A stretch of 35,185 nucleotides of DNA, from positions 1-35,185 of the forward strand of contig NZ_JAQUHV010000020.1 of the NCBI RefSeq assembly GCF_028681615.1, written 5' to 3'. A program made the translations under genes and the position numbers. The notes under the pieces are model-generated. The model did not search any database. It worked only from the letters and a program-made list of their open reading frames with translations, and was not told the DNA's origin. Source of the DNA: Sulfuricurvum sp. (lineage in GTDB: Bacteria > Campylobacterota > Campylobacteria > Campylobacterales > Sulfurimonadaceae). Positions 242 through 34,854 of the stretch are shown piece by piece (positions within the stretch are counted from its first letter, which is position 1; the number at the start of each line of letters is the position of its first letter).

Positions 242-380
242 AATCTATTACGAAAATCAAGTGTTTTCCGCACACTCTCCCCTACTCTACAATTAAATAC
301 TAAAAATATGCAATAATCTATACGAAAAACCCTATCGGAATGATATAATAGTCGGATACTAAAATTTGAGGTTTTCCGAC
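242..380 (+). promoter_or_regulatory. Resolvase upstream region: direct repeats, inverted repeat and promoter; possible res/operator
   Basis: AATCTAT(T)ACGAAAA occurs twice in direct orientation (242-256 and 315-328). The first copy is followed by TTTTCCGCA (264-272), forming an imperfect inverted repeat. A second inverted repeat, GTCGGA (351-356) and TCCGAC (375-380), ends exactly at the resolvase ATG. TATAAT at 344-349 is a good -10 box. Serine resolvases usually bind imperfect inverted repeats in front of their own gene, so this could be a res site and autoregulatory region. No binding data exist, and the repeats are short. Confidence 0.45.
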
Positions 381-950
381 ATGCTAATAGGATATATGAG
401 AGTTTCAACCGATGGTGATCGCCAAAGTACCGATTTACAACGTGATGCATTGATAAGTGCCGGAGTGGATGAGCGTAATATTTTCGAAGACAAAGCATCC
501 GGAGCCAAAGATGATCGTGTTGGCTTAACAAAAGCGTTAGAGTATGTAAAAGAGGGAGATGTATTAGTCGTTTGGAAATTGGATCGGTTAGGCAGATCCC
601 TACCCCACTTGATTGAAATTATTTCACAACTCAAATCTAAAGGTGTCGGATTCAGATCTTTGACCGAGGGGATGGACACCTCCAGCCCGTCCGGAGAGTT
701 GCTGTTTCATGTATTCGGAGCACTGGCACAGTTTGAACGCTCATTAATCCAAGAGAGAGTAAATGCCGGATTGGCAGCAGCGAGAAAAAGAGGACGTATC
801 GGTGGACGACCACGAGCAATACCTCAAGAGAAGATGGATACTATTTTGGAGGCATTGAATAATGGGATGTCTAAAGCAGCAGTTTGTCGCACTTTTGAAG
901 TTAAGCGATCGACTTTGATTGATAGTCTCAATCGTACTAAAACGATTTAG
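381..950 (+). CDS. Serine recombinase, resolvase/invertase family
   Basis: This is a small serine site-specific recombinase of 189 residues, the usual size for Tn3-type resolvases and DNA invertases. The start is taken at ATG 381 because the protein then begins MLIGYMRVST, as in the family; a TTG 15 bases upstream is less likely. The catalytic serine is S9 in RVST, with partner arginines at R7 and in LDRLGRS (about 67-73). The long E-helix follows (ALAQFERSLIQERVNAG), and a C-terminal helix-turn-helix (about 150-185, AAVCRTFEVKRSTL) contacts DNA. It probably resolves plasmid multimers or transposition cointegrates. No transposase is adjacent. The repeats just upstream could be its site. Confidence 0.9.
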   Translation: MLIGYMRVSTDGDRQSTDLQRDALISAGVDERNIFEDKASGAKDDRVGLTKALEYVKEGDVLVVWKLDRLGRSLPHLIEIISQLKSKGVGFRSLTEGMDTSSPSGELLFHVFGALAQFERSLIQERVNAGLAAARKRGRIGGRPRAIPQEKMDTILEALNNGMSKAAVCRTFEVKRSTLIDSLNRTKTI

Positions 951-995: not shown

Positions 996-3900
996 TTACT
1001 CTCCTGCCAACTCATTCGCAATCATCTCAGCCTGTTTCAAGACCGTCTCGGTTGCCAACATCTGCATATCCGGTGGATAACCAAATTGGCGGAGGGTTCT
1101 TTTTACGATTACCTTTAGTTTGGATCGGACACTCTCTTTGATTGTCCAGTCGATACTGGCATTTTCTCGCACTCTCTGCGTTAGAACAACGGCAAGCTCT
1201 CGTAAAACATCTTTTTCCATAACTTCTTTAGCGCTATCATTGTTAGCGATGGCAGTATAAAATGCGTATTCAAAGTCTGTTAAACCCATCGCTTTAGGCT
1301 CTTCATCCATTTGATGAATATCTTTACTGAGCTTGATGAGTTCTTCAATAACTTCAGCTGCCGTAATGATTTTGTTATGATATTTTTTGATCGAGTTTTC
1401 CAACATCTCCATAAGCGATTTGCTTTGTACGAGATTCGTTTTCATCCTCGTTTTAATCTCGTCATTGAGAAGTTTTTTCAACACTTCCAAGGCGATATTT
1501 TTATGTTTCATCCCTTGAACTTCGAGCAAGAATTCTTCCGATAGAACAGAGATATCAGGCTTTTTAATTCCTGATGCATCAAAAATATCGATTACTTGCT
1601 CTGTTACGAGGGCTTGATCGATGACCTGACGGATAGTAGTTTCTAACTCTTCATCTGTAAGACCGCCACCAGTACCATTGAACTTTACGAGTCGTGCTTT
1701 TACTGCTTGAAAAAATGAAACTTCATCTTTTACATCCATCGCCTCATCATGGGGAACAGCAATAGCAAATGCCGATGAGAGTGCAGTTACTTCATCTATG
1801 TATCTTTTTTTGCCATCTTCGAGACCCAAAACATGCTCTTCCGCTTCAAGGATCAAAGTTAATTTCCCTCTGGTATCTGCTTCAAAGTAATGCTCATATG
1901 CGAATCCATGATACATTTGAGAGACCACTTCTAACTTTTCCAACATCAGTGCAACGGCTTGCTCTTGTGCAAGTGCCGGATCACCTTTTCCGCCACTATC
2001 GCTGTAAAACGATAACGCTTTTTTGAGATCACTTGCAATTCCCAGATAATCTACAACCAATCCAGCAGGCTTATCACCATAAACCCGATTAACCCGTGCA
2101 ATCGCCTGCATGAGGTTATGCCCTTTCATAGGCTTATCGATATAAAGCGTGTGCATCGATGGCGCATCAAATCCAGTCAGCCACATATCCCGTACAATGA
2201 CAAGTTTGAGTTCATCACTCGTATCTTTCATACGGTTTGCCAAATCGCGTCTTTGCTGTTTCGTCGTATGATGTTTGGCTAATGATGGACCATCGCTAGA
2301 ACTGGCTGTCATAATCACTTTGATAACACCCTTATCCAGATCATCGTTATGCCAGTGAGGGCGAAGCTTGATTATCTCCTCATAGAGCCTTGTAGCTATC
2401 CTTCTACTCATAGCAACGATCATCCCTTTACCATCAAATACTTCTTGACGTGCTTCAAAGTGCGTAACAATATCGTTTGCTACCTCTTTAACGCGATTTT
2501 CGCTTCCGATCAGGGCTTCGAGTTGGGTCCATTTTGCTTTGGCTTTTTGGGTTTCACTTAAATCATCATTACCAAGCTCATCATCGAGCTCTTTAACGAG
2601 CTTTTTACCTTCATCGCTTAGCTGTATTTTTGCAAGTCGGCTTTCATAGTAAATTTTAACCGTTGCACCATCCTCAACCGCTTGGGAAATATCATAGATA
2701 TCGACATAATTACCAAACACGGCAGGTGTGTTTACATCGCTACTTTCAATCGGAGTCCCCGTAAATCCAAGATAGGTGGCATTAGGCAATGCATCTCTGA
2801 GGTATTTTGCAAATCCATAAACGATTTTCTTACCGATAACATTTCCATCTTGATCTTTATCATCAACCGTTTTGGGTTTAAAACCATATTGCGTTCGGTG
2901 CGCTTCATCGGCGATAACGATGATATTTCGTCGATCTGAGAGTTCATCATAAACATTTCCCTCTTCGGGCTGAAACTTTTGGATCGTGGTAAAGATCACC
3001 CCACCGCTCGCAACTTTGAGTTTTTGTTTGAGATCGTCTCGGTTTTCTATCTGCACAGGCTCTTGTCGAAGCAGATTTCCACAACCGGCAAAAGTATCAA
3101 ATAGCTGATCATCCAAATCATTTCTATCAGTGATCACTAAGATGGTTGGGTTATTGAGAGCTAGGACGATTTTACCCGTATAAAACACCATAGAGAGTGA
3201 CTTTCCGCTCCCTTGGGTATGCCATACAACACCCCCTTTTTTATCTCCGCCCTCACTACTAGCCTTGATGGTTCGCTCTACTGCTTTATTGACGGCATAG
3301 TATTGATGATAGGCAGCCAATTTTTTGACCGTCTCGATGGTGACGATACCGTTTTTATCCTCTTTTTTGCTTTTCTCATACACGATGAAACTGCGTACCA
3401 GATCGAGCAATGTCATTGGATTCAACATACCCTTGATCAGTGTTTCGAGTTGCGGAACGAGCTTGGAAGCTTCACTGATACCATCACCGCTTTTCCATGT
3501 CATATAACGGCTAAAGCCCGCTGATATCGTCCCCGCTTTTGCTTCGATACCATCGCTGATCACACAAAAAGCATTGTAGGTAAAAAGAGAGGGGATAAGT
3601 GCTTTGTAGGTGCCGATCTGATTATGAGCCGTTTTGATCGTAGCGTTTTCATCCACAGCATTTTTGAGCTCAATCACGACCAACGGCAAACCGTTTACAA
3701 AGAGAATTAAATCGGGGCGTTTGTTGATCCCATTTTCAACGATAGTGAATTGATTCGATACGATAAAATCATTACGGCTTACATCATCGAAATCGATAAG
3801 TTTAACTATCTCTCCACGAGTCACACCATCTCTTTGCACTTCAACCGTTATACCCTCGATAAGCATCTTATGAAAAATCTCATTATCGCTCAAAAGTTCT

Positions 3901-4139
3901 GTGGATCTGAGTCTTTGACATTGTTTTACCGCATATTCGAGCAGATCATATTCGAGTGTCGGATTAATAACCGAAAGTGCGTTTTGGAGCTTTTCTTTTA
4001 ATATCACATCTTCAAAAGAGTTCCGAAGAGGTGTCTGGCTATCCGGTGCGATATTGGGTGCATAGATATATTCATACCCTAGTTTTTCCAGTAGCTCTAT
4101 GGCAAAAAGTTCGATTTCATTTTCGGTTATCTTGGTCAT
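996..4139 (-). CDS. hsdR: Type I restriction enzyme, R (endonuclease/translocase) subunit
   Basis: This is the 1047-residue motor and nuclease subunit of a type I restriction enzyme. It translocates unmodified DNA and cuts it at a distance, working with HsdM and HsdS. The N-terminal PD-(D/E)xK nuclease is visible as RPD (D143) and VIELK (E157, K159). The SF2 helicase motor shows Walker A TQGSGKS (308-314), DEAH at 411-414, then GFTGTPIE and the late motif QAIARVNR. The C-terminal part is helical and probably binds HsdM. Length is normal and the frame is intact. It is separated from hsdS by about 6.5 kb of other defence genes, all on the same strand. It may be transcribed from the cassette promoter at about 6600 or from one nearer; none is obvious in the 95-base gap upstream. 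Confidence 0.96.
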   Translation of the reverse strand: MTKITENEIELFAIELLEKLGYEYIYAPNIAPDSQTPLRNSFEDVILKEKLQNALSVINPTLEYDLLEYAVKQCQRLRSTELLSDNEIFHKMLIEGITVEVQRDGVTRGEIVKLIDFDDVSRNDFIVSNQFTIVENGINKRPDLILFVNGLPLVVIELKNAVDENATIKTAHNQIGTYKALIPSLFTYNAFCVISDGIEAKAGTISAGFSRYMTWKSGDGISEASKLVPQLETLIKGMLNPMTLLDLVRSFIVYEKSKKEDKNGIVTIETVKKLAAYHQYYAVNKAVERTIKASSEGGDKKGGVVWHTQGSGKSLSMVFYTGKIVLALNNPTILVITDRNDLDDQLFDTFAGCGNLLRQEPVQIENRDDLKQKLKVASGGVIFTTIQKFQPEEGNVYDELSDRRNIIVIADEAHRTQYGFKPKTVDDKDQDGNVIGKKIVYGFAKYLRDALPNATYLGFTGTPIESSDVNTPAVFGNYVDIYDISQAVEDGATVKIYYESRLAKIQLSDEGKKLVKELDDELGNDDLSETQKAKAKWTQLEALIGSENRVKEVANDIVTHFEARQEVFDGKGMIVAMSRRIATRLYEEIIKLRPHWHNDDLDKGVIKVIMTASSSDGPSLAKHHTTKQQRRDLANRMKDTSDELKLVIVRDMWLTGFDAPSMHTLYIDKPMKGHNLMQAIARVNRVYGDKPAGLVVDYLGIASDLKKALSFYSDSGGKGDPALAQEQAVALMLEKLEVVSQMYHGFAYEHYFEADTRGKLTLILEAEEHVLGLEDGKKRYIDEVTALSSAFAIAVPHDEAMDVKDEVSFFQAVKARLVKFNGTGGGLTDEELETTIRQVIDQALVTEQVIDIFDASGIKKPDISVLSEEFLLEVQGMKHKNIALEVLKKLLNDEIKTRMKTNLVQSKSLMEMLENSIKKYHNKIITAAEVIEELIKLSKDIHQMDEEPKAMGLTDFEYAFYTAIANNDSAKEVMEKDVLRELAVVLTQRVRENASIDWTIKESVRSKLKVIVKRTLRQFGYPPDMQMLATETVLKQAEMIANELAGE

Positions 4140-4234: not shown

Positions 4235-4768
4235 TTAGATTTTATTGTTAAGCGTCAAAATATCAATTCCTGAATTTTTAAAATCACTATCATTCGTTAG
4301 CAAAACGAATCCGTTGTCTTTGCACAGATTGACTATCAGTTTATCAGAAAAATCCAAACTGTCAATTACCAACATACTTTCAATTTCTTTCTGATAAATA
4401 CCTGTATCCACTATTTCAAAATCATTTATTATTTTTGCTTTGACTAAAGTATAAATATCATTCTGTGCATCTTGCCCCTCAGTACTATCTCTATATTGTT
4501 TATAATTATATGATTGAGAAGTAAGACCGTTTGTGGTTAAATAATTATTGTACTCAATTTTCATTACCCTATTAACAAACTCTGAAATGACTACAAAATG
4601 GATTGTAAATTTTGTATTTTGTTGTATTAGCTTATTATATACTTGAGAGTATCTTGCTTGCCAGGTAAGATGCGTACTCCAGAAAAGATAAAGAAGTATA
4701 TTCGCATCGAAAAAAATCTTCTTATCCCCTATTGTATGCATATTATTCAAATCATATTTATTCATCAT
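4235..4768 (-). CDS. PIN-domain protein, candidate ribonuclease of the GHKL-STAS-PIN cassette
   Basis: This is a PIN-fold protein of about 177 residues counted from ATG 4768, which overlaps the end of the STAS gene. A longer reading from 4798 exists but lacks support. The acidic active site is readable: FFDANILLYLF (D21), ISEF (E63), a third acidic residue in DFSDK (D142), and LLTNDSDF (D160, D162). PIN proteins are metal-dependent RNases, most often toxins of VapBC type. No VapB-like antitoxin is next to it. Instead it is translationally coupled to a STAS-like protein and a GHKL ATPase, which suggests its activity is gated by that pair (inference). Binding to tRNA, mRNA or phage RNA cannot be judged from sequence. 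Confidence 0.85.
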   Translation of the reverse strand: MMNKYDLNNMHTIGDKKIFFDANILLYLFWSTHLTWQARYSQVYNKLIQQNTKFTIHFVVISEFVNRVMKIEYNNYLTTNGLTSQSYNYKQYRDSTEGQDAQNDIYTLVKAKIINDFEIVDTGIYQKEIESMLVIDSLDFSDKLIVNLCKDNGFVLLTNDSDFKNSGIDILTLNNKI

Positions 4769-5117
4769 CTTCGCCCAATATCTCTTTGATAGACTCAACC
4801 ATTCTTTGTGAATCTTTGAAATAGAGCTTTGCTCCGATTACAACCCTTTTTAAGATGATTTGATCTTCAACTGCCATATCTTCAACCTGTAAACTTTCTT
4901 TGAGTTTTGCATCTTCAAAAGACCCATATAGCTTACCGATAGCACTGTTAAGAAATGCCGATGTGATTGTCGTGACATTTTTGAACGATATCATTGCTTT
5001 TTTATTGCTTTCCAAAGCTTTTTTGATGGCTTCAAAAACTTTTTCACCATCTTCTGGTAACGTACAATTCCCGTTACCTACGATATTAAACACATTAATT
5101 TTTACACTTTCCATCAT
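4758..5117 (-). CDS. STAS-like domain protein (DUF4325 type)
   Basis: The protein has 119 residues and starts at a double ATG behind AGGGATAA. Its pattern suits the DUF4325 STAS-like family: an initial beta strand (KINVFNIVG), a helix with many lysines (EKVFEAIKKALESNKKA), the strand MISFKNVTTI, and the signature region SAFLNSAIGKLYG. STAS proteins act as switch partners; in the sigma-factor partner-switching system a STAS protein is bound or phosphorylated by a GHKL kinase. Here the GHKL gene ends 6 bases upstream and a PIN nuclease gene overlaps downstream. The threonine/serine stretch TTITSAF could hold the phospho-acceptor, but that is inference. DUF4325 proteins have no settled function that I know of. 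Confidence 0.8.
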   Translation of the reverse strand: MMESVKINVFNIVGNGNCTLPEDGEKVFEAIKKALESNKKAMISFKNVTTITSAFLNSAIGKLYGSFEDAKLKESLQVEDMAVEDQIILKRVVIGAKLYFKDSQRMVESIKEILGEDDE

Positions 5118-5123
5118 TTATCC

Positions 5124-5984
5124 CTAAAATAATTCACTCAGATCAATCTCTTCTGCAAAGTGATAAGATGTCGTATCATTGGTTTTGAAAACCATATTGA
5201 TAATAACACCGTCAAAATATGAATCAAGATCAAAATATTCTTCACCACCAGTATCAAGCTGATACATGGCATTTCCACTGATTATCTGTATTTTACCCTT
5301 ATTTTTTGTAATAAAGTCTTTGAGTATCGCCAGTCCTATTCCTCCGGGAGTATCCTTTTTGGTCGTATGTCCTTCTGTTATTGCCCATTTGATAGCTTTT
5401 GCAGAAGGGATCTTTTCGCCAAGGTTATTTTCTATTCTTTTAGCAAATCCTACTCCAGTATCAACTATGGTAAAAATGATCTCATTACGCTGAGGATAAA
5501 ATTGACCACAGGTATAGATAAATTTAGTATCACTGTGTATCTGTGCATTGACAAACATTTCAAAGATTGACTCGCTTATTTTTTTCCTGACTTCCTGACT
5601 CATATTTGGCAGTTCATTTCTGCCAAATAACTCTGTTTGCACATAGTTGCTAAAATATCTGCTGTCAGTAGGTTTTAGCTTAAGATATTTGATAGTTGTG
5701 TGATACGTATCATTGGTATCATCAAACCCAAAATGTGCTAAAAATCTATTCTTTTTCAGTATTATTTGAATATTTGGAGAAACAGTTCCAAATTCAATAA
5801 AATTCCATTCATTTAATCTATCGATAATACCGCCTAAAACCGCACTGAGATTTGCATCAAACCATGTGTCCAAATTGATTTCAATAGTTTCAAACGTATC
5901 ATCTTTATATTTTCCATAAAACTCGATCAGTTTATTGAACCCATCGTAATCATTATGAATGTTGGATAATGTAGCATTGTTCAT
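5124..5984 (-). CDS. GHKL-type ATP-binding protein (HATPase_c)
   Basis: This 286-residue protein carries a C-terminal GHKL ATPase fold. The N box is in FEMFVNAQIHS (N146), the G1 box is DTGVGF (D175), and the G2 box is GGIGLAIL (214-221). No histidine phosphorylation site, membrane segment or receiver is present, so this is not a normal sensor kinase. It looks more like an anti-sigma-type serine kinase or a stand-alone GHKL ATPase. The N-terminal 120 residues have no motif I can name and could be the sensor. The gene starts within the stop of the AbiEi-like gene (TAATG) behind AAGGAA, and it precedes the STAS gene by 6 bases, so the pair is almost certainly made together. Confidence 0.85.
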   Translation of the reverse strand: MNNATLSNIHNDYDGFNKLIEFYGKYKDDTFETIEINLDTWFDANLSAVLGGIIDRLNEWNFIEFGTVSPNIQIILKKNRFLAHFGFDDTNDTYHTTIKYLKLKPTDSRYFSNYVQTELFGRNELPNMSQEVRKKISESIFEMFVNAQIHSDTKFIYTCGQFYPQRNEIIFTIVDTGVGFAKRIENNLGEKIPSAKAIKWAITEGHTTKKDTPGGIGLAILKDFITKNKGKIQIISGNAMYQLDTGGEEYFDLDSYFDGVIINMVFKTNDTTSYHFAEEIDLSELF

Positions 5985-6592
5985 TATGTTTCCTTGCAGA
6001 TTTCTTTGATGGTCTCGTAGATCCAGTCCGTTGATGTTTTCGTATCTGTTAGGATCTTGCCAAACATCTTCTCATCGATCTGGCTTCGAATTTTAGTGAT
6101 AACCGTATCTGTGATATGTTCTTTACCGAGTGATCTTAGCGCCTGTACTATCAAAGAACTCTCTTTGTATTTAAACCCTATGTTTTTCAAAGCAGATTTT
6201 TTAAACGCTAGGACTATGTTGTCTTGGATAATATACTCCCTGTTTGGTCCATTACTGAGGTATATATATTTACCGACAATCTGGGTAGAAAGACCCAAGA
6301 TATTGAGCGCCGTATCACCGCTTACTTCGATTTGCCAGTTAAACTTTCTGGCATAAGCATGGGCAATCTTTTCCATATCCGGACTTAGATTTTGTTGCAA
6401 GAGTTTACTGTATTTTGGATAGTCATATATACCGCGAGCCACTCGGCGGATTTTGCCTTTTTGTACTAACTCCGATAGTGCTTTATCTATATTGTCTCTT
6501 GGAAAATCTCTTATAAAATCCATAGATGAAAACGCATACCCATTTCCGTTTCCATATATCTTTGAAAGCACTTGCTCTTGGGTGGATTTCAT
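5984..6592 (-). CDS. AbiEi-like winged-helix protein (DUF6088 type)
   Basis: This 202-residue protein opens with a winged-helix domain (about 1-60): a helix pair SSMDFIRDFPRDNIDKAL, then the wing KGKIRRVARGIYDYP. That wording is typical of the DUF6088/AbiEi antitoxin group. The middle (about 75-150, SGDTALNILGLSTQ, then KYIYLSNG) matches the conserved core seen in AbiEi-type proteins. In AbiE systems this protein represses its own promoter and offsets an AbiEii nucleotidyltransferase toxin. Here no AbiEii follows; a GHKL-STAS-PIN set does. A perfect 10-bp inverted repeat just upstream over the promoter is a likely operator. I infer that it regulates and perhaps controls the PIN toxin cassette. 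Confidence 0.8.
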   Translation of the reverse strand: MKSTQEQVLSKIYGNGNGYAFSSMDFIRDFPRDNIDKALSELVQKGKIRRVARGIYDYPKYSKLLQQNLSPDMEKIAHAYARKFNWQIEVSGDTALNILGLSTQIVGKYIYLSNGPNREYIIQDNIVLAFKKSALKNIGFKYKESSLIVQALRSLGKEHITDTVITKIRSQIDEKMFGKILTDTKTSTDWIYETIKEICKET

Positions 6593-6610
6593 AGTTTATC
6601 CATATTCATT

Positions 6611-6648
6611 TTTTCAGAAAAATATACCATTATTTCTGAAAATTTCAG
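6611..6648 (-). promoter_or_regulatory. Operator/promoter of the AbiEi-GHKL-STAS-PIN cassette
   Basis: A perfect 10-bp inverted repeat lies at 6611-6620 (ttttcagaaa) and 6633-6642 (tttctgaaaa) with a 12-base spacer. A second overlapping palindrome, CTGAAA-A-TTTCAG, covers 6636-6648. On the minus strand the spacer contains the extended -10-like TGGTATATT, so a protein on the repeat would block transcription. AbiEi proteins are known to bind inverted repeats at their own promoter, and the AbiEi-like gene begins 19 bases downstream. The cassette therefore seems independently regulated from the hsd promoter. Confidence 0.6.
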
Positions 6649-6729
6649 GTTAAAAGAATGGACAAAATAAGCTAACTTATTTTCAGTCATTATGCACTCT
6701 TTTTTGTTGAGGAACATGCTTATAACAGG

Positions 6730-7479
6730 TCATTTGGACTGTTTTTCTTTATATGTTTTGTAAATAAACAATGCCATTGAACCTGCCAAATTAACTGCAA
6801 GTTCACCATGTCTCTCTTTTGGCTTAATCTTTGTTTTTGTTGCACCGTGTGCATCACCTAATTTATTTCTCATTACACCAAGTCCACTTATAATTCCATT
6901 CGCACCACCAAGTATTTGTTTAAAAATGCCTTCTTGATGCTGTTCTGGAGCTAAATTTAATAACTTTGCCACCTCTTTATAAAGCTCTGACAATTCCATA
7001 CTATCATTATGATTGATATTCTGTTCCTCTAAAATATGTTTTAACAAACTCTCAATCAAAGTTCTAGCAATGGTTATAGCACCCTCTGGATCACTGTCTT
7101 TTCTTTCAATTGCTTTTTGCCATTGCTGAGAAATATGTACTTCGTCAAAAACTATAATCTCATCAAGCGGGGAAAATGTTTTAAATTCTATTTGATTCAG
7201 TAGCGGTGCGAATTCACTCCAAATGAACTCTCTTCTTTCCTGATAAGAACCAAATTTGCCTTTAATAAAACCCCAAAATTGATTTGTATCTCTGCAAGTT
7301 TTAATCCACTCAGGAAGTAACTTTTGATAGTCATTATTCTTTAGTACTTTTTGTCTTACATAATCATAATAATCAAAACTCCCACCTGTTGCACGACCAA
7401 TTAAACCATTTTCAAGGTACTTTATCAATTCGTAGTCAGTAAGATTATTTATTGTTGTTATTTCATCATTAAAGCTCAT
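6730..7479 (-). CDS. Abortive-infection protein with Abi_C / HEPN-like C-terminus
   Basis: This 249-residue protein ends in a domain recognisable as the abortive infection C-terminus (Abi_C, from memory PF14355). It has the run ITIARTLIESLLKHILEE, then GGANGIISGLG, then MRNKLGDAHG. The last element, R204-N205-x5-H211, has the spacing of a HEPN R-x(4-6)-H ribonuclease motif, so RNA cleavage is plausible. The N-terminal half (1-110) holds no known domain and is likely the sensor part. It starts on an ATG that overlaps the stop of a scar ORF made of hsdR and hsdS fragments. Neighbours are an OLD-type nuclease upstream and the AbiEi cassette downstream. It could act alone or with the OLD protein. 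Confidence 0.75.
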   Translation of the reverse strand: MSFNDEITTINNLTDYELIKYLENGLIGRATGGSFDYYDYVRQKVLKNNDYQKLLPEWIKTCRDTNQFWGFIKGKFGSYQERREFIWSEFAPLLNQIEFKTFSPLDEIIVFDEVHISQQWQKAIERKDSDPEGAITIARTLIESLLKHILEEQNINHNDSMELSELYKEVAKLLNLAPEQHQEGIFKQILGGANGIISGLGVMRNKLGDAHGATKTKIKPKERHGELAVNLAGSMALFIYKTYKEKQSK

Positions 7480-7553
7480 ATCCTCACCCTCACTTCTCCC
7501 CTCAAAAACCTAATAGCGAACAATTCGATTTTATTTTCGATGATTTCAGTCAT
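7476..7553 (-). pseudogene. Chimeric scar: hsdR start fused in frame to hsdS end
   Basis: The gap between the ATPase and Abi genes encodes 25 residues on the minus strand. The first 14, MTEIIENKIELFAI, match the real HsdR N-terminus (MTKITENEIELFAI) at 11 of 14 positions. The last part, RGEVRVRI, matches the HsdS C-terminus GGEVRVEW, and GAAGTGAGGGTG is shared at the base level with the intact hsdS end. The piece is in frame from ATG to TGA and the TGA overlaps the next ATG. It reads as a footprint of a recombination or insertion event at the old hsdS-hsdR junction, not as a working gene. Confidence 0.75.
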
Positions 7554-7557
7554 TATG

Positions 7558-9552
7558 TTACTCACTAAAATATTTCCTAACTTCTTTTATCCATTCTGGA
7601 ATAAGAGAATCATTTTCTGCTTCTTTTGACATGATTTCTACATACTTTTGAGCAAAAACTGTTTTAAATTCACCATCATTATCTTTGAATAAATTTTCAA
7701 GTTCTAAGTTTTTGAAATTTTTTATAAAATCTGAATTGCCATTTTCATTTTCTATCGTTTTAATCGTATATTTTTCATTGATAGAAAGTTCATTGATTGC
7801 TTTTTGAAAGATTATAGGGTTCAACGCCTGTTCTATATCGGTTGGAGATGTATCTGAATGATTGAGTGTTAAAAGTTCTGTTTTTATATTTGAATTTTTA
7901 TTGCTTAGTCTTCTGAGTTTGAGATTTTTACTACCCTCTTTTAAATAATCTTTATGTCTAGCTTGGTCAGTATCAATTAAGCACCAAATTTTCCCTTTCA
8001 GGGCCTCATTCTTTTCTCTCATTGGCAACTCTAGATATTCATAAACTTCAGATACACTATTGTTTCCACCGAGAGGCAAAATTCTCAATTTCTTTTCTTC
8101 AATTTCTTGTTGAAAGAAGTATTCTAAATAATGTTTTTCACTAATTCCTTCAACAATCAACCAGTTGTATGGAGTTTGTCCTTGTATTGAATAATATATT
8201 GCTTGTACTAAATCATTAGTACTTTTAAGCATGAAGTTATTTGGTAATTTTCCTTTACTAGTTGTCGTTGTAGATCTGATTTTAGCTTTATAATCATATA
8301 AATCATATGTTTCAAAAATAATTTTTTCACTTTTATAATCTAGAAAATGTCCATACCCTTGACTTAAAATTGGCAAAAAACCATACCAATGTGTAGTAAT
8401 AAAAATTTGATTGTTTTTGGAAATAGTTTTTAATTTCTCAAACTGCTCATAGCATAGTGATGTGTGTAAAGAGTTTTCTGGTTCATCAATTCCAATAATA
8501 ATACTTTTTTCTCTATCTATATTTCTTATCAAGAAAGCATAAACGATATCAATTAGAGCTTGCCGTTTTTCTCCAGCACTTAATTCACTAACTTTTTTAT
8601 CCTTTCTATATAAAACTCTTTTTTGAAAATATGCTTCTAATATTTTATTTACTAAATCTGATTTTGTAATTTTGTTATTTCTTTGTTGCCCAGTTTGATA
8701 TTCATATTCATCATGTAATATACTTTGTATTTCGATTAAAAAACTTTCTAATTTGTTATTAATACCATCTGTACCTTCCAGCTTTACATTGGATAGAGCA
8801 GTTGTTATTTCGTCTTTTAGCTTTTTATCAAAGATTTTCTGCATTTCATCTGTTTCAACTTTTGTAAAACTTTCTATATCAAGCTCAACTGGCACATAAA
8901 CGAATGAGTATAACTCTTTTAACTCTTGCAAGATTTTTCTTTGTTCATTTTTATCTAACAATTTATTGAGCTCATCTTTCCAAAGCGAGAGAGTTTCTTT
9001 TCTCTCTTCACTTGACTTTCCTTCTAGCTCAGTTGCGTTTTTATCTAAATAATGCGTTAAAAATTTCTCTTCATTATGAAAACTTGCAAAATATAATTTT
9101 GGAGCCCCCCCAGTAATATTTTGTTCTCCTAAAATAAAAAAATAATGCGATTCTTCACTATATTGCAAATTTTTTAATATACTTTCTCTTATCAAGAAAA
9201 AGTCTTTCATTGAGCCCTGAACACCTGAACTTAAATCAGTTTTCCTAACATTCCAAAAAAATTTACTTATTTTTTCAAATTCATTTTTTTTTCTTGGAAC
9301 TTTTGTTTTATCGATTAGAAAGATAGGAGCAAAAAATGGTTCATTTCCATAAGTAAAAATTCCATCATTTAATGCACTTTTATTGATTGGATATAGCTTA
9401 TTATTAAAAAATGAATTAAAAGCTTCGAGAATTGAGCTTTTCCCAATTCCATTTTCTCCAATATAGCTTACAAAGTTATATTTTTCTCCAATTGGAATAT
9501 AGTTAATTCCCTTATATGCTTTTATATGTTTTAAAAATAAACCTACAATCAA
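7558..9552 (-). CDS. OLD-family ATP-dependent nuclease (ABC-type ATPase plus TOPRIM)
   Basis: The protein has 664 residues. The N-terminal ABC/SMC-type ATPase shows Walker A GENGIGKS (32-39), the signature ELSAGEKR (about 323-330), Walker B IIIGIDEPEN (D356, E357) and the switch TTH (386-388). A TOPRIM nuclease follows, with E468 in LIVEG and the D-x-D pair at D527/D529 in CLIDTD. This order defines the OLD group, which includes GajA of Gabija and retron effectors. No UvrD-type GajB is beside it. The start is TTG 9552, supported by AAAGGA seven bases upstream; no ATG fits. Gene composition is very AT-rich, apart from one run of seven G (9105-9111) at codons 148-150. Likely a phage-defence nuclease. 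Confidence 0.88.
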   Translation of the reverse strand: MIVGLFLKHIKAYKGINYIPIGEKYNFVSYIGENGIGKSSILEAFNSFFNNKLYPINKSALNDGIFTYGNEPFFAPIFLIDKTKVPRKKNEFEKISKFFWNVRKTDLSSGVQGSMKDFFLIRESILKNLQYSEESHYFFILGEQNITGGAPKLYFASFHNEEKFLTHYLDKNATELEGKSSEERKETLSLWKDELNKLLDKNEQRKILQELKELYSFVYVPVELDIESFTKVETDEMQKIFDKKLKDEITTALSNVKLEGTDGINNKLESFLIEIQSILHDEYEYQTGQQRNNKITKSDLVNKILEAYFQKRVLYRKDKKVSELSAGEKRQALIDIVYAFLIRNIDREKSIIIGIDEPENSLHTSLCYEQFEKLKTISKNNQIFITTHWYGFLPILSQGYGHFLDYKSEKIIFETYDLYDYKAKIRSTTTTSKGKLPNNFMLKSTNDLVQAIYYSIQGQTPYNWLIVEGISEKHYLEYFFQQEIEEKKLRILPLGGNNSVSEVYEYLELPMREKNEALKGKIWCLIDTDQARHKDYLKEGSKNLKLRRLSNKNSNIKTELLTLNHSDTSPTDIEQALNPIIFQKAINELSINEKYTIKTIENENGNSDFIKNFKNLELENLFKDNDGEFKTVFAQKYVEIMSKEAENDSLIPEWIKEVRKYFSE
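9105..9111 (-). repeat. Homopolymer G7 tract inside the OLD nuclease gene
   Basis: Seven consecutive G on the coding strand fall in codons for Thr-Gly-Gly-Ala around residues 147-150, in an otherwise AT-rich gene. In Campylobacterota, G tracts of this kind often slip and switch genes on and off; tracts of eight or more are the usual switching ones, so this is borderline. The gene is in the ON length here. A second G7 run lies in the outer-membrane factor gene (31583-31589), so the tract alone is weak evidence. Confidence 0.35.
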
Positions 9553-9645
9553 TTAAATATCCTTTAGTCTAATTTCACCACTCATAAGCTTAACCGATAG
9601 TGTATCTCGCCAGTTTTCAGAAAAAACAATTTGTATATTATTCAT
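9553..9645 (-). pseudogene. Remnant of an hsdS 3' end
   Basis: Between the SIR2 and OLD genes a 30-codon frame on the minus strand ends with WRDTLSVKLMSGEIRLKDI. This matches the conserved last helix and tail of HsdS; the intact HsdS here ends RETLLPKLMGGEVRVEW. The shared pattern is R(D/E)TL..KLM.GE(I/V)R. It is not a copy of the local hsdS, since residues differ, so it probably came from another type I system. Its ATG overlaps the SIR2 stop, and its TAA directly abuts the TTG start of the OLD gene, so it may now serve as a translated leader that carries the OLD ribosome binding site. Confidence 0.7.
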
Positions 9646-10627
9646 ATTTCGCAAGCTCTTCATACCAACTCCAAAGTTCCTCAAAATTAACATTTTGTGG
9701 AATAGGATTATCTTCTATAAACTTAGCATCGATAAACTGATTCCAGTACGCTTCACCCGTTCTTCTTGGGTGATTAGCTATCCATGAAGAAAAAAAATCG
9801 TTTTCGATTTTATAGTGATGACTAAATATAAATGGCTGCCATGTTTCTATGAGATCATCTTCCGCTCTAATATCTATAATTTCTGTTTCTTCAAGTGCTC
9901 TTTGTCTATGATTCCATGCTTTTTCCATTAAATCAATTGCCCCTTTGTCTGACTTAGGAGCTCCATATCCAAAAATAGTAACCATAAAAGAGTGCTTCAA
10001 TACATCCTTAAAAATCTCCCACTCTTTATGAATAAAAGGGTCTAATGAATAGTTTTTATCTCCAATGGGATACAAAAGCTTTGACGGTATCAATGCTTCA
10101 TGACATATTGAACAAGGTTGTCCAATATTCCCTTTGATGTGTCCATTCGGACAATATCCGACCTCTACATTTCCATGTAAAAATATTAGTTTGGGCAATT
10201 TAAATTTATTACCATTTCTTCTATATGCTTGAATCAAAAATGGATCCCAGTTAAATGTTGCTATAAAGTCTTTTTCTCTCAATGAAAGAAGTAAATAATC
10301 ATATATAGTGGGAGTTTCTAGAATTTCCAGTGATGAAAAATACTCGTAAACTTTTTGTTCGAGTTCTACTTTTATCTCATAAAGAGTCGGATCTTTAGAA
10401 ATTTGGTCATAAATCTCTTCAAAATTACTCGTTTGAAATTCGATTTGAGTTTGTTTGATCAAGTCATCAAGCTCTAAAATATCAATCAGATTATTCATCA
10501 GTGGAAGTTGCTTATTATTTTTGTCACCCAAACGAAAAGAAGCATAACTAGCACCAGCACCGAGAATAACTAAATGTGGCGCGCCAATATTAATTTGTTT
10601 GATTTCTTCTTCTTTATTAACTACCAT
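9638..10627 (-). CDS. SIR2-like protein, candidate NAD-consuming defence effector
   Basis: The protein has 329 residues with a SIR2 fold. The NAD-binding GAGAS is at 23-27, the TFNWD motif at 124-128, and the probable catalytic histidine is H151 in LHGNV. A zinc-knuckle-like set C159, H163, C172, C175 lies in the usual place. GYGAPKSD (about 220-227) matches the family's late GxG-x-S/P-D motif. Stand-alone SIR2 proteins in defence loci usually destroy NAD+ after phage sensing (established for Thoeris, DSR and similar systems). Its ATG overlaps the hsdS stop by 7 bases, so it is translated from the hsdMS message. That coupling suggests it backs up restriction, which is inference. Confidence 0.85.
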   Translation of the reverse strand: MVVNKEEEIKQINIGAPHLVILGAGASYASFRLGDKNNKQLPLMNNLIDILELDDLIKQTQIEFQTSNFEEIYDQISKDPTLYEIKVELEQKVYEYFSSLEILETPTIYDYLLLSLREKDFIATFNWDPFLIQAYRRNGNKFKLPKLIFLHGNVEVGYCPNGHIKGNIGQPCSICHEALIPSKLLYPIGDKNYSLDPFIHKEWEIFKDVLKHSFMVTIFGYGAPKSDKGAIDLMEKAWNHRQRALEETEIIDIRAEDDLIETWQPFIFSHHYKIENDFFSSWIANHPRRTGEAYWNQFIDAKFIEDNPIPQNVNFEELWSWYEELAKYE

Positions 10628-11772
10628 TCCACCCTCACTTCCCCACCCATAAGTTTAGGCAAAAGAGTCTCTCTCATATTTTTAAGGTTTTTGATTTGGT
10701 TTGTATTTTGAATAATCTTTTCATTAAAAGAGGATGTAACTTCATGAAATTTTTCAATCAAATCATATGTTGGTAAAGTTATTTCTATATTTTCAAAATC
10801 CGTTTTATTAATTATTGGCATGGTAGTACCACCCATTGCTATAGCACGAAGTAAAGGATAAATATATTTTAAATGCTGATACACATATTCAACCAATATG
10901 CTGTCCTCAATTATCAAAGAATTAATTTGTTGATTACTTACACATTGACTTTGTGCTATCGCTACTTTTCCCATATCTGAACCAATACATGTAACTAAAA
11001 TAGAATTTATTGGCAATAGAGAATTTTTGACTTTCTCCACTCCCAAAAGCGAAAGACTTCTATCAGAAAAGGTAGTATATTTACCATAGTATTTAAAGTC
11101 AGTTGGAGTAACAAAATATATTCCGTCACCCCAAAATTCTGTATTCTGAGTACTTGGTGTTTTACCAGTAACAGCTTTTCCTAGATTCCCTAATATGGTT
11201 ACTTCCCACTCATCCCTAGCCTCTTCAATAAACCACTGCCTAAAAAGCGTTTGAGCCAACTCTTCAAGAGTTTTATTTTGACGGTGAAGAAGATCGATTT
11301 TATCATCAAGACTACTTAGCACTTCCGCTATAGCTTTTTGTTCTTCAAGGGGTGGAACATTCCAAACTGTTTGAGATAAAAAGTTCCAATCTGCTCTAGG
11401 CATTCTCGTTCCACCTGATGAAGAATAAGAAATATCAACCAGCTCTTGATTTGTAAAAAAGTAAAATAAAAAGTCTTTGTCAATTCCTTTTTGTGGATTG
11501 ATTACCCAAATATCGGTTGAACATATGCCATCAAAATTAGGTTTAACAACTTTTCTAAAATATGGTCTTAATTTTCCAAAAAGTGTATCTCCAGCTTGAA
11601 AATAAAATTTGTTACTTGCCACATCTTCAGATTTACCAATGCCATTTAATCTAAGCTTAGCTTCTTCAATATGCTCAAGTCCGATATAAGACATTGGTTC
11701 ATCACCAACTTTCCAAGATTTTTTAGAAAGTTTAGCAATATCAGAAATTTTGCACTCTTTCCACTCACCCAT
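10621..11772 (-). CDS. hsdS: Type I restriction-modification specificity subunit
   Basis: This 383-residue DNA-recognition subunit is counted from ATG 11772, which overlaps the end of hsdM by 8 bases; the protein then begins MGEWKECKISDIAKL. Two target-recognition domains are present: about 5-150 and about 190-335. Each is followed by a conserved helical spacer. The first spacer reads PPLEEQKAIAEVLSSLDDKI and the second ends in MRETLLPKLMGGEVRVEW. The two half-site specificities cannot be predicted from sequence by eye. The gene is intact. The next gene, SIR2, starts inside its stop region, and fragments of other hsdS tails occur at 7476-7500 and 9553-9615. Confidence 0.95.
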   Translation of the reverse strand: MGEWKECKISDIAKLSKKSWKVGDEPMSYIGLEHIEEAKLRLNGIGKSEDVASNKFYFQAGDTLFGKLRPYFRKVVKPNFDGICSTDIWVINPQKGIDKDFLFYFFTNQELVDISYSSSGGTRMPRADWNFLSQTVWNVPPLEEQKAIAEVLSSLDDKIDLLHRQNKTLEELAQTLFRQWFIEEARDEWEVTILGNLGKAVTGKTPSTQNTEFWGDGIYFVTPTDFKYYGKYTTFSDRSLSLLGVEKVKNSLLPINSILVTCIGSDMGKVAIAQSQCVSNQQINSLIIEDSILVEYVYQHLKYIYPLLRAIAMGGTTMPIINKTDFENIEITLPTYDLIEKFHEVTSSFNEKIIQNTNQIKNLKNMRETLLPKLMGGEVRVEW

Positions 11773-13285
11773 CAACAACAACCTTTGCCAAATTATCATT
11801 GATTCTCTGATTGAGTTGTGCTTCTTCTGCCATCTGCTCTTTTAGCTGTCTTTGTAAGCTTTCAAATCTCTCTTTGAAATCAAACTCATCCTCCACATCT
11901 TCCAGCCCAACATATCGCCCCGGAGTGAGAACATAATTCATCTCACGCACTTTTTCGAGGCTTGCGGATACGCAGAACCCTTTTATATCTCCATACGCAC
12001 CATTGCCAGTTTTCCAATCATGATAAATCTTGGCTATAGTGTCCGTATCTTCATGGCTGAACTCTTTTGTCCGTCTGTTTATCAGCGCACCCATATTTCG
12101 TGAGTCTATAAACAAGATATCTTTAGTCGTTCGTCCTCGTTTCATAAACCATATAGAGGCGGGGATTTGAGTATTGAGAAACAGTTTGGCGGGGAGATTG
12201 ACGATACAATCGACCAGATTGGCTTCTATAAGAGCTTTTCTGATTTCCCCCTCATTGGAAGTGTTAGAAGTGAGGCTCCCTTTAGCCAGTACAAATCCCG
12301 CTGTTCCTGTCGGTGCTAGATGATAAAGAAAGTGTTGTATCCATCCGTAGTTGGCATTTCCCTCTGGTGGGGTTCCATATTTCCATCGTCCATCGTTTCG
12401 GAGCAGATCACCGCTCCAATCGCTGACATTAAACGGTGGATTGGCGATGATAAAATCAGCTTTTAAATCTTTATGAGCATCATTGAGAAATGAGCCTTCA
12501 TTGTTCCATTTGACTTGAGAACTGTCGATACCACGAATGGCGAGGTTCATTTTCGCCAATCGCCATGTTGTTTGGTTGGACTCTTGCCCATAGATGGAAA
12601 TATCGTTTAGTTTTCCTTGGTGCTCTGTGACAAACTTCTCCGATTGGACAAACATACCGCCACTACCACAACACGGATCGAATACTCTCCCCTTGTATGG
12701 CTCTAACATTTTTACGAGAAGCTCAACAACGCTTTTCGGAGTATAAAACTGTCCGCCTTGTTTACCCTCTGCCAGTGCAAACTCGCCCAAGAAGTATTCA
12801 AACACATGACCAAGGACATCCGCACTTCGAGCTTTCGCATCTCCAAAAGCGATATTACCAATCAGATCGATTAGCCCGCCAAGAGATTTGCTATCAAGAT
12901 TGTCTCTGGCAAAAACTTTTGGCAGAACCCCTTTGAGTGATGGGTTGTCCTTTTCGACAACATCCATCGCTTCATCAACAATCTTTCCAATATTTGGGAG
13001 TTTGGCATTAGCAAGGAGATACGACCATCTGGCAGTAGGCGGAACAAAAAATACATTTTCAGCTTGATACTCGTCGCGATCTTCGGGATCAGCACCCGCA
13101 TAATCACCATCCCCCGCTTGGAGTTGATTATAAAGCTCTTCAAAACTATCAGAAATATATTTGAGAAACACTAGCCCCATTACGACATGTTTATACTCTG
13201 CTGCATCAATATTTTTTCGTAGTTTATCTGCGGCTTTCCAGAGTTGTTTTTCTATCGCTTCTTCTTGTTGTTTTTCTTTTGCCAT
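11765..13285 (-). CDS. hsdM: Type I restriction-modification DNA N6-adenine methyltransferase
   Basis: This 506-residue modification subunit methylates adenine in the sequence chosen by HsdS and is also needed for restriction. The N-terminal helical HsdM domain (EKQLWKAADKLRKNID, then HVVMGLVFLKYIS) leads into the methyltransferase core. The S-adenosylmethionine site is FDPCCGSGG (202-210) and the catalytic motif is NPPF (282-285). The C-terminal helices (about 470-506) form a coiled coil suited to HsdS contact. The ribosome site AAGAGGATAG precedes the ATG. It is the first gene of the restriction locus; its promoter should lie in 13286-13360, where TACAAT and TATATGAT-like boxes occur on the minus strand. 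Confidence 0.96.
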   Translation of the reverse strand: MAKEKQQEEAIEKQLWKAADKLRKNIDAAEYKHVVMGLVFLKYISDSFEELYNQLQAGDGDYAGADPEDRDEYQAENVFFVPPTARWSYLLANAKLPNIGKIVDEAMDVVEKDNPSLKGVLPKVFARDNLDSKSLGGLIDLIGNIAFGDAKARSADVLGHVFEYFLGEFALAEGKQGGQFYTPKSVVELLVKMLEPYKGRVFDPCCGSGGMFVQSEKFVTEHQGKLNDISIYGQESNQTTWRLAKMNLAIRGIDSSQVKWNNEGSFLNDAHKDLKADFIIANPPFNVSDWSGDLLRNDGRWKYGTPPEGNANYGWIQHFLYHLAPTGTAGFVLAKGSLTSNTSNEGEIRKALIEANLVDCIVNLPAKLFLNTQIPASIWFMKRGRTTKDILFIDSRNMGALINRRTKEFSHEDTDTIAKIYHDWKTGNGAYGDIKGFCVSASLEKVREMNYVLTPGRYVGLEDVEDEFDFKERFESLQRQLKEQMAEEAQLNQRINDNLAKVVVDG

Positions 13286-13561: not shown

Positions 13562-14263
13562 TTAATTTTCTAGGAAACGTTTTAAAAAATCTTCTCGACT
13601 GAGAATTTTCGCTCCCAAATCTATTTTGTACTCCATATGCGGATGTCCTAGATTCCAAAACCGTACCCCTTCGCTTTCCAAATGATGCCCAAGCAGCACT
13701 AATTGCTGTGTTCCCCAATTCTCGTATTGCTTATCCGATTTGTGAAAACCCGATAGACTCGTATAAACATTATGGGTGATATAGCCTATCTCTCCGGCGA
13801 TCAACTCATTGCTTCTCCTGTCAAACAGCTCAGTACTGAACAAAGTAAAATTATCATAGCTATTCTGAGAGAGGGTATCCATCAGCTCAGCATACGCACC
13901 CTCTAACCAACATGGAGAATAAGCGTTTTGGATGGAGGCAATCACATCAGGGAATCGGGTATTAAACTCGAGGTGATATCCCCCTTTTTTAATAAGTTTG
14001 CCAACCTTACGAGAAATATGCAGATCCTGAAAGTCTAGAACTGCGTACTCTTCTTGCATTTCCGGAAGCAGTAGTAAGTTATCTTCATGTAAATGACTGA
14101 CGCTGATAAACCCGGCTTGCGCCAGCGCGATATACATTTGAGGGGAGAAATCATTACTCCAATAGTAGTTGACGTCCATATTTGGATAAACATAGTAATC
14201 AAGAATCTCTTTGCTGATATCTTCAAAGGTGATATAAGGGATCTGGCGTTGATCGGTACTCAT
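13562..14263 (-). CDS. Leucyl/phenylalanyl-tRNA-protein transferase-like (Aat family)
   Basis: This 233-residue protein has the Aat-type acyltransferase layout: YYWSNDFSPQMYIALAQAGF near the N-terminus, then ELI(A)GEIGYITHNVYTSLSGF in the C-terminal GNAT-like half, followed by WGTQQLVLLGHHLESEG. The classic enzyme moves Leu or Phe from tRNA to N-terminal Arg/Lys residues, marking proteins for ClpS/ClpAP. This member is divergent, and its real substrate is uncertain. It follows the WYL regulator by only 14 bases with its own strong site (AGAGGAGACT), so the two form an operon. An Aat-like gene on a plasmid next to a WYL regulator and a restriction locus is unusual. Confidence 0.7.
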   Translation of the reverse strand: MSTDQRQIPYITFEDISKEILDYYVYPNMDVNYYWSNDFSPQMYIALAQAGFISVSHLHEDNLLLLPEMQEEYAVLDFQDLHISRKVGKLIKKGGYHLEFNTRFPDVIASIQNAYSPCWLEGAYAELMDTLSQNSYDNFTLFSTELFDRRSNELIAGEIGYITHNVYTSLSGFHKSDKQYENWGTQQLVLLGHHLESEGVRFWNLGHPHMEYKIDLGAKILSREDFLKRFLEN

Positions 14264-14277
14264 AGTCTCCTCTTACA

Positions 14278-15207
14278 CTACTGTATCAGATGCTCGATCT
14301 GACGACTAAGGAAGCTATCTGCAATTGCTTTAGCTTTGAGAGCAAGCGCTTTAGGAGAGGTAATGATGAGATCGGGCATCCACTTTTTGATCTCATGGAG
14401 TATTTCGCGCTCAGCAGTCACCAGCACCTCAATCTCCATACTTCCATCCTTGTAGGTCTCGATGATTCGCTGGGTACTGGCTAGTGGTCGACGATGGAAG
14501 TATTTGGCAATCTCGGCGGTTGCACGGATTGTCACTGCAAAAGGTTCTTTATCAGGTTCGAACCATGCGTTAATGGCACGCTCCAGAATCTTGTAGGTCT
14601 TATCATTGGGAATAAAGGTCTCATTGGTGAGTTGGAGATGATCAATCCCTTTGAAGTAATAGGTTTTGAGTTTATTTTCTAAAAGCTCTTCACCATAGAG
14701 ATACCAGTACCCCTCAAATGAGACGATCTTATAGGGGTGAACATGACGTAGTTTACCGTTGTAGTTAAATATCACCATCTTGCTCTCCATGATTGCCTCT
14801 TCGATGATATGAAAGAGGGAAAGCTTATCCGAGATATCTTCGATGATGGTTTTGGAGTAGATGGGGTTTTTAGTGTTGTTCTGGAGTTTGGAGAAGAGGG
14901 ATTTGGCTTTCACCCCAAACTCTGATCCGATACCCTCAGCAATATTACCGAGCATCTCCAGTACCAATGCCTCTTCGGGAGAGCGCTCTTTGGTGATGGC
15001 ATGGCCGCTTTGCATCTTCCACTTCATCCCCTGCTTCTCTATCGGAAAACGAATCAGTCTTTGGTTGAAATCACGCTGTATGGTCTTGGTGGAGACATTG
15101 AACTCTAGGGCTAAATCCTGAACCGATAAGAGTTCCCCCTCATAGAGACGCTGCAAGATGATGGTAAGTCGGGTGAGGATCTTATCGTAGTCGTGAATTT
15201 GTCCCAT
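14278..15207 (-). CDS. WYL-domain transcriptional regulator
   Basis: This 309-residue regulator begins with a DeoR-like helix-turn-helix (about 10-65; VQDLALEFNVSTKTIQRDF). The WYL domain follows (about 135-215, ending near EGYWYLYGEELLENKLKTYY), and a C-terminal WCX-like part lies at about 230-305. WYL proteins bind nucleic acid or nucleotide ligands, and many repress defence operons (BrxR and CapW are known examples). The gene is first in an operon with the Aat-like gene. An inverted repeat at 15226-15249, 18 bases before its ATG, is the likely operator and could also control the divergent small genes from 15291. Confidence 0.88.
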   Translation of the reverse strand: MGQIHDYDKILTRLTIILQRLYEGELLSVQDLALEFNVSTKTIQRDFNQRLIRFPIEKQGMKWKMQSGHAITKERSPEEALVLEMLGNIAEGIGSEFGVKAKSLFSKLQNNTKNPIYSKTIIEDISDKLSLFHIIEEAIMESKMVIFNYNGKLRHVHPYKIVSFEGYWYLYGEELLENKLKTYYFKGIDHLQLTNETFIPNDKTYKILERAINAWFEPDKEPFAVTIRATAEIAKYFHRRPLASTQRIIETYKDGSMEIEVLVTAEREILHEIKKWMPDLIITSPKALALKAKAIADSFLSRQIEHLIQ

Positions 15208-24950: not shown

Positions 24951-25244
24951 ATGGTTACCAAAGAGGTGATTCTGGATTTTTTTGCTAATCACAAAGACGA
25001 GCTAAGAGAAAAATACTCTCTCGTTAAAGTGGGGCTTTTTGGCAGCTATGCCAAAGGCGCAGCAACGCCCGAAAGTGATATTGATATTTACGCTGAATTT
25101 GAAGATAAAAAATTTAGAAATATTGCCGGTGCTTGGAACTATTTCGAAGAAGCGTTCGGAACAAAAATAGATCTCTTGTATCCTCATAAGAACATGAGGC
25201 CATCTCTAAAGCAAAACATAGAGCGTGAAGTCATCTATGGATAA
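24951..25244 (+). CDS. mntA: MntA-type nucleotidyltransferase antitoxin
   Basis: This 97-residue minimal nucleotidyltransferase carries GLFGSYAKGAATPESDIDI, the GSx10DxD catalytic motif, with the third acidic residue in KIDLLY. In MntA-HepT systems this enzyme AMPylates the HEPN toxin near its active site and so silences it. The gene has a clear promoter and site and overlaps the hepT start by 8 bases (ATGGATAA), the usual arrangement. Gene composition is closer to the main replicon than to the AT-rich ParA-like gene upstream. Confidence 0.92.
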   Translation: MVTKEVILDFFANHKDELREKYSLVKVGLFGSYAKGAATPESDIDIYAEFEDKKFRNIAGAWNYFEEAFGTKIDLLYPHKNMRPSLKQNIEREVIYG

Positions 25245-34544: not shown

Positions 34545-34557
34545 CTATATCTCCCCA

Positions 34558-34854
34558 TCAGTCTGCATTCGGGCCTTCAACTTTATTTTCTAAGATTTTT
34601 CCATCTTTAGCATCAACACCCACTTCATGAGAGACTTTTCCTTGTTTAATGACAAAAGAATATCTCAGACCACTTCCTCCAGATTCTTTTTCTAACTCTT
34701 CATCAATGATTATACCAGCATAGGTTTTAAGGGCAATTTTTTGCGCCTCGGGCATTGTAACATTTGCCTTTTTAGCCATCTCACTACCGGTATAGGCAAA
34801 TGCTGCCGATGCTGTTAATAGTGTAACAAGTGTAATAGTAGTTACTTTTTTCAT
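34558..34854 (-). CDS. PepSY-domain periplasmic protein
   Basis: The 98-residue protein has a signal peptide (MKKVTTITLVTLLTASAAFA). A single PepSY domain follows: MPEAQKIALKTYAGIIIDEE, then LRYSFVIKQGKVSHEVGVD, then ILENKVEG. Such small PepSY proteins often accompany two-component systems and may tune the sensor, as inhibitors or ligand carriers. It is the first gene of the operon. AGAAGG lies before the ATG. Confidence 0.88.
   Translation of the reverse strand: MKKVTTITLVTLLTASAAFAYTGSEMAKKANVTMPEAQKIALKTYAGIIIDEELEKESGGSGLRYSFVIKQGKVSHEVGVDAKDGKILENKVEGPNAD

Follow-up and report, generated by a model that had tools for sequence, protein, structure and literature searches.

How are defence genes added to a type I restriction-modification operon, and does each addition leave a mark in the DNA? 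The growth of defence islands has so far mostly been deduced from gene content. The window studied here, the whole 35,185-nucleotide stretch of a Sulfuricurvum contig (NZ_JAQUHV010000020.1), holds on its minus strand a type I restriction-modification operon consisting of hsdM, hsdS, seven cargo genes and hsdR, with all seven non-hsd genes lying on the same strand between hsdS and hsdR (Table 1). The likeness of this cargo to defence genes comes from matches to AbiJ, AbiEi and AriA/OLD-type models. Within the seven-gene stack, between the OLD-like and the AbiJ-like genes, a sequence-only reading had pointed out a short frame that joins an hsdR head to an hsdS tail. We examined what this frame is, whether it recurs elsewhere and how it could have arisen.

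The frame comprises 25 codons and a stop, and reads MTEIIENKIELFAIRFLRGEVRVRI. It is made up as MTEIIENKIELFAI-RFL-RGEVRVRI, an hsdR start followed by an hsdS end, and the reversal of the operon order claimed in the sequence-only reading is present as such. The frame starts 4 nt past the stop of the OLD-like gene, and the start codon of the AbiJ-like gene overlaps its stop by 4 nt (ATGA). Our recount against the window's own HsdR start, MTKITENEIELFAI, returned the same 11 of 14 identical residues as had been given before, and RGEVRVRI, previously likened to the HsdS end, is identical to GGEVRVEW at five of eight positions, with GEVRV in common. The head part scores 57 (ungapped BLOSUM62), compared with a minus-strand best of 45 over 642 kb of control sequence. 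At the DNA level, the tail is identical to the hsdS end at 14 of 15 nt. Searched with at most two mismatches, GGGGAAGTGAGGGTG from the hsdS end occurs at two sites in 35 kb, one in hsdS and one in the scar; 0.03 matches are expected by chance, and none of 100 shuffles reached two. The 11-aa tail taken alone reaches a score of 33, whereas the regional controls go up to 37, and its hsdS identity is accepted because of the DNA identity and the position. The head matches the window's own hsdR at only 32 of 45 nt and is about equally near several hsdR genes (32-34 of 45 nt), with no single one closer; a 26-mer of the hsdR head, scanned against the window with up to three mismatches, did not recover the scar. 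The stretch occurs once in the window's own genome. We thus confirm that the 25-codon frame is a real fusion of an hsdR start and an hsdS end, as first observed.

Table 1 The hsd operon of the window, its cargo genes and the relics between them, listed from hsdM to hsdR.
Feature	Position in window	Strand	Basis
hsdM	11765..13285	-	Pfam N6_Mtase, HsdM_N
hsdS, C-terminal end LPKLMGGEVRVEW	10621..11799	-	Pfam Methylase_S
SIR2-like gene	9638..10627	-	Named from motif VILGAGAS
Second relic, 30-codon ORF, hsdS tail	9553..9645	-	Score 72 vs minus-strand maximum 41
OLD-like AAA ATPase with TOPRIM, cargo preceding the scar	7558..9552	-	AAA_15, OLD-like_TOPRIM
Scar, in-frame fusion of an hsdR head of about 15-17 codons with an hsdS tail of about 8	7476..7553	-	
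AbiJ-like gene, cargo following the scar	6730..7479	-	Abi_C, AbiJ
Possible third relic, 33-codon ORF starting MTENK	6589..6690	-	First bases scar-like; weak
DUF6088/AbiEi-like gene	5984..6592	-	Domain and defence-model matches
HATPase gene, weak	5124..5984	-	HATPase_c E 0.00056, under the cut-off
DUF4325 STAS-like gene	4758..5117	-	Domain match
PIN-domain gene	4235..4798	-	Domain match
hsdR, N-terminal start MTKITENEIELFAIELL	996..4139	-	HSDR_N and others; TIGR00348

We take the gene with the motif VILGAGAS to be SIR2-like; it gave no Pfam, NCBIfam or PADLOC match. Directly upstream of hsdM (13562-15207) lie a WYL regulator and a leucyl/phenylalanyl-tRNA transferase-like gene, the latter unusual company for defence genes. 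Genes for ParA/ParB and for Rep3-type, DnaB-like and resolvase proteins lie elsewhere on the contig (16961-20619, 23796-24590 and 366-950), and weak DNA matches of this part are to plasmids of Sulfurimonas, Sulfuricurvum and related genera. The contig is probably a plasmid; a terminal overlap of its ends was looked for and none was found. RND efflux pump genes, a two-component system and a gene for a PepSY protein occupy 27208-34854, and the nucleotidyltransferase and HepT-like gene pair at 24951-25608 is presumably a toxin-antitoxin system.

The scar is not the only relic in the window. A 30-codon ORF at the border of the SIR2-like and OLD-like genes overlaps the end of the former, abuts the TTG start codon of the latter and reads MNNIQIVFSENWRDTLSVKLMSGEIRLKDI before its stop. 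With generic hsdS tails as queries it scores 75, compared with a control of 37, and its DNA aligns with the hsdS end of another locus, L035. It is a clearer hsdS-tail relic, one that the sequence-only reading had overlooked, as it had the overlap between the scar's stop and the start of the AbiJ-like gene. Another ORF, located between the AbiJ-like and DUF6088 genes, has its stop on the DUF6088 start (ATGA). This ORF opens with CATAATGACTGAAA, an exact repeat of the scar's first bases that has two sites in the window at no more than one mismatch, where 0.04 are expected. Since the likeness of this ORF to the scar ends after a few codons, we grade it as a possible third relic.

To place the scar among related operons, we surveyed hsd loci from many genomes. 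Related hsdR genes (E 1e-50) are present in 62 of 228 genomes of Sulfurimonadaceae. Loci of this family, 80 named loci and 32 phylum regions made up the scan set; 153 loci less five duplicates gave 148, and after 13 with fewer than 500 bases upstream were dropped, 135 were scanned. Plasmid and E. coli hsd loci, which were examined but left out of the scar scan, mostly have few cargo genes. Orphan hsdR heads with a score of at least 50 were found in 15 of the 135 hsd regions. At the same threshold and over the same regions, hsdR tails, hsdM heads, hsdS heads and the minus strand each gave no match, while internal hsdR windows, nine per locus, gave a single one (L109). The hsdM-tail control yielded two matches, L084 7367-7450 and L098 7609-7683, both between hsdM and hsdS and the second directly preceding hsdS; their position suggests that the hsdM-hsdS junction may undergo the same process as the hsdR side. 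Orphan hsdS tails were seen in five of 108 regions with a called hsdS, and internal hsdS windows in none. When the whole HsdR, HsdM and HsdS of each locus were compared with its own cargo region, there were, beyond the head and tail relics, just marginal low-identity matches, which we treated as chance.

At least one cargo ORF is present in 94 of the 105 loci in which hsdM and hsdS were called. Of the 65 loci that have at least two cargo genes, 11 contain an orphan head, as do one of 29 with a single cargo gene and none of the 11 without cargo. Loci whose hsdR genes are 84-91% identical, and whose hsdM genes are about 83-94% identical, mostly carry different cargo between hsdS and hsdR. Exchange of cargo at this place, on which the sequence-only reading depended, is common among loci this similar, and scars of the same kind, which it had proposed to look for at the cassette borders of related loci, do lie at cargo borders there. 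Comparison of the loci shows that the hsdS-hsdR interval is an exchange zone for defence genes, in which borders within the cargo are marked by short hsdR-start and hsdS-end relics; several loci have the two fused, hsdR head first and hsdS tail second.

The relics differ in detail. L033, L036 and L041 have an hsdR head ahead of a DUF6088 gene and count as one common scar, whereas in L037 a 42-codon head lies between two cargo genes. L053 and L055 belong to another hsd family (hsdR about 33% identical), and their orphan heads (MTKFTEEKL.. and MTKFTKEKL..) resemble their own family's HsdR (MSKFTEEKL..). Orphan heads extend up to about 60 codons, with joints falling about 8 to 60 codons into hsdR. 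Some heads are nearest the hsdR of their own locus (L087, L141, L112, L115 and L146), and others are nearest that of another locus (L036/L041, L093, L135 and L055). As a side observation, the DUF6088 relative of L036 is followed by an AbiEii gene, while in the window HATPase, DUF4325 and PIN genes come after the DUF6088/AbiEi-like gene (4235-6592), possibly as an alternative partner set for it.

Four additional heads (L034, L035, L112 and L141) were recognised separately and after the fact, which brings the total to 19. An hsdS tail directly follows the orphan head in seven of the 19, namely the window, L034, L093 (Nitrosomonas), L112 (Methylomicrobium), L148 (Nitrotoga) and two archaeal MAGs, L135 (Candidatus Argoarchaeum) and L141 (Methanophagales). 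The fusions are thus distributed over Campylobacterota, including another Sulfurimonadaceae genome, Pseudomonadota and archaea; those of L135 and L141 probably go back to one common event and count as a single scar. The fusion is in frame in the window, L093 and L135 and out of frame in L034, L112, L141 and L148. In L093, it reads MTKLTEPAIGDFAIKLFERLGYSTIYVPDIVPDGEYPKK joined to FCDTLLPKLMSGEVRVTV and a stop codon. The tail of L112 alone scores 35, below the control maximum of 37, and is accepted because of its position.

Two of these fusions can be matched to loci of the donor type. In the donor-type ARRANGEMENTS, the scar tail of L034 and the Fic-family gene next to it continue the sequence of the real hsdS end of L032 and the gene that follows there; the gene after the scar and the gene directly after the intact hsdS share 98% protein identity. 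Likewise, the gene that follows the L093 scar shares 96% protein identity with the one immediately downstream of hsdS in L096 (Nitrosomonas ureae) and 86% with its counterpart in L149. The DNA of L093 and L096 aligns as far as the joint, and L034 and L032 are continuous in the same way. The head side has a counterpart in L039, where a 60% relative of the gene preceding the L053 orphan head stands immediately upstream of the real hsdR. Among the loci compared, none supplied such a before/after pair for the genes of the window itself. A 60% relative of its AbiJ-like gene lies immediately upstream of hsdR in L224, a distant type I locus, and relatives of its OLD-like gene in L225 and L226 are located outside hsd loci. 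A further OLD-like relative (34%) sits within a BREX operon, in the pglX-pglZ interval, on an Acinetobacter plasmid (NZ_CP039147.1; L227 8001-9935), so members of this gene family are found inside defence systems of more than one type.

We also counted adjacency over all genes with any relative in the set. Genes preceding a scar have relatives directly before a true hsdR in five of eight cases (other cargo, 68 of 160); genes following one have relatives directly after hsdS in 12 of 16 (other cargo, 67 of 180). The direction is as predicted and the result is weakly positive. Because the after-scar count is dominated by RhuM-like genes, we rely instead on the two near-identical pairs described above. 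In L146 (8525-9070), a truncated RhuM-like gene runs in frame into an hsdS tail, a further outcome of such joining. Some other features were noted beside the scars. GC-rich, palindrome-like stretches were seen by eye in two hsdR-head scars (L084 10001-10147 and L087 2275-2448). IS200/Y1-transposase-like genes precede the scars in L084 and L148 (L148 9418-10008), and relatives of the Y1-transposase-like gene lie directly before hsdR in several loci.

The reading frame of the scars carries a signal of its own. Seventeen cases had a usable next gene, a small sample in which some cases are related and the ends of head similarity were set by hand from alignments and scans. In 15 of the 17, the frame of the head continues past the joint and reaches a stop no more than 20 nt from the next start; the other two frames, read from the same joint, do so in 11 of 34 (p 0.0002). 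An exact overlap with the next start (-4 or -1) is found in 7 of 17, compared with 2 of 34 for the other frames (p 0.004). When related cases are merged, the counts become 13 of 14 compared with 11 of 28 (p 0.0009) and, for exact overlap, 7 of 14 compared with 2 of 28 (p 0.003). That the frame is kept open up to the next start suggests that scar frames may be under selection for uninterrupted translation along the operon, and the scar is likely retained as a translated bridge between the adjoining genes.

The reading that we favour, with a probability of roughly 78%, is that cargo was added at the start of hsdR and that the old start remained as a relic. In the earlier form of the operon, an intact hsdR would have come straight after the OLD-like gene. 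DNA arriving from a second type I locus would have brought an hsdS tail, cargo and its own hsdR. At the left joint, the first codons of the resident hsdR would have become linked to the last codons of the donor hsdS, and the right side would have been resolved by homology in or past hsdR, leaving one complete hsdR. The old hsdR start and the donor hsdS end would then remain fused between two cargo blocks. Repeats of such joining would stack modules, with each orphan head representing a former hsdR start. As a bridge, the scar would start where ribosomes leave the upstream gene and stop on the next start codon. The act of recombination itself we infer from the joints. Heads nearer to another locus's hsdR favour replacement of hsdR together with the insert, and simple target duplication fits equally well for the heads nearest their own hsdR. 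The recurrent relics and the variable cargo support the earlier proposal that modules are gained or lost by recombination at the hsdS end and hsdR start, and these gene ends may be recurrent, selected breakpoints or a dedicated exchange site.

The same product could be reached by another route, in which a single crossover between hsdR genes, for example of a plasmid-borne with a resident copy, gives tandem hsd loci, and a deletion then runs from the start of the first hsdR to the end of the second hsdS. This would yield exactly the head-tail order, related hsdR genes occur on 665 plasmid records, and the window itself has plasmid-type replication and partition genes. However, no intermediate with a long hsdR fragment was seen among the loci scanned, where heads reach about 60 codons at most, and deletions should leave a broad range of lengths unless selected; we regard duplication followed by deletion as somewhat unlikely. 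Insertion with long target duplication, as in some RM systems, would let an insert enter the hsdR start and leave a copy of that start on either side of itself. Such a process has been described (PMC3874152), and it would suit the 15 of 135 regions in which cargo is flanked by hsdR heads at both ends, the head sizes of up to about 100-180 bases and the several heads that match their own hsdR best. As to a single origin of both copies, the best match is the own hsdR for some heads and another locus's for others. Target duplication leaves unexplained why 7 of 19 joints carry an hsdS tail and why some heads are closer to another locus's hsdR, and we consider it improbable.

A dedicated site-specific recombinase, with the hsdS end and the hsdR start as attachment sites, would account for the clustering of breakpoints at the same two gene ends across several phyla, and there is a serine resolvase gene near one end of the window (366-950). 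Yet the position of the joint varies over tens of codons, and the domain search recognised no such enzyme in the window cargo and elsewhere only the Y1-transposase-like genes, in few loci, which makes this explanation very improbable. The scar might instead be a conserved independent small gene or leader peptide, as its open frame is tightly coupled to both neighbours. The sequence-only reading had set this up as the case that would speak against it, but only the architecture recurs. Other loci hold different peptides, each with a head and tail like the local hsd gene ends; the window stretch is single-copy in its own genome; and the same peptide was seen in no unrelated context among the loci compared. 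We rejected a conserved small gene on the differing peptides and the single occurrence, and give it next to no weight. The sequence is short, which leaves room in principle for chance resemblance or an assembly error. Against this stand the head score relative to its control, the orphan-head controls of the survey, the GGGGAAGTGAGGGTG shuffles and the recurrence of the same architecture in independent genomes, on which grounds chance resemblance was rejected; the probability of either is negligible.

On the favoured reading of cargo added at the hsdR start, the scars resemble marks left directly by individual acquisitions. They point to the gene that formerly adjoined hsdR and indicate that new cargo can come with part of a donor hsdS, and the surviving joints appear to keep the operon translatable. 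They could be used for ordering defence-gene gains, and undescribed defence genes could be found as whatever sits between two scars. As a wider and tentative proposal, the hsdS end and hsdR start might form an integrase-free exchange boundary that collects defence modules in bacteria and archaea, where each gain would leave a head-tail bridge mini-gene as a record of the order of acquisition and paired repeats may allow clean loss.

Defence cargo between hsdS and hsdR is already in print. The DarTG2/RptR island of EPEC lies between these genes, at a site described as perhaps a recombination hotspot (PMC12255303), prrC lies within ecoprrI, a type IC locus (PMC12707154), and the rlo and mlo genes of Campylobacter jejuni lie between hsdS and hsdR (PMC5183652, citing Miller 2005). 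The DarTG2/RptR, prrC and rlo loci resemble the window in having defence-type cargo in this interval; the passages of these accounts that deal with the loci make no mention of border relics, stacking order or bridging mini-genes, whereas the loci described here have relics. In the open-access literature, we found no report of scars that join an hsdR head to an hsdS tail. For RM insertion with long target duplication, target copies of about 100 bp are described as flanking the inserted genes (PMC3874152, citing Nobusato 2000 and Furuta 2010). As far as these passages go, the scars are alike in that copies of target sequence flank an insert, and unlike in that the target here is part of an RM gene and the insert is cargo inside an RM operon; in contrast to what that process predicts, many scars here carry an hsdS tail. 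Homology-facilitated illegitimate recombination in transformation proceeds through one homologous joint and one without homology, and adds DNA beside a conserved gene. The one-sided joining would be similar, while here end products are what is seen, and the joints recur at the same gene ends. Integron gene cassettes stack as modules at one boundary beside a fixed gene. The stacking is alike, but here no integrase was found in the window cargo and no constant attachment site, and the joints vary.
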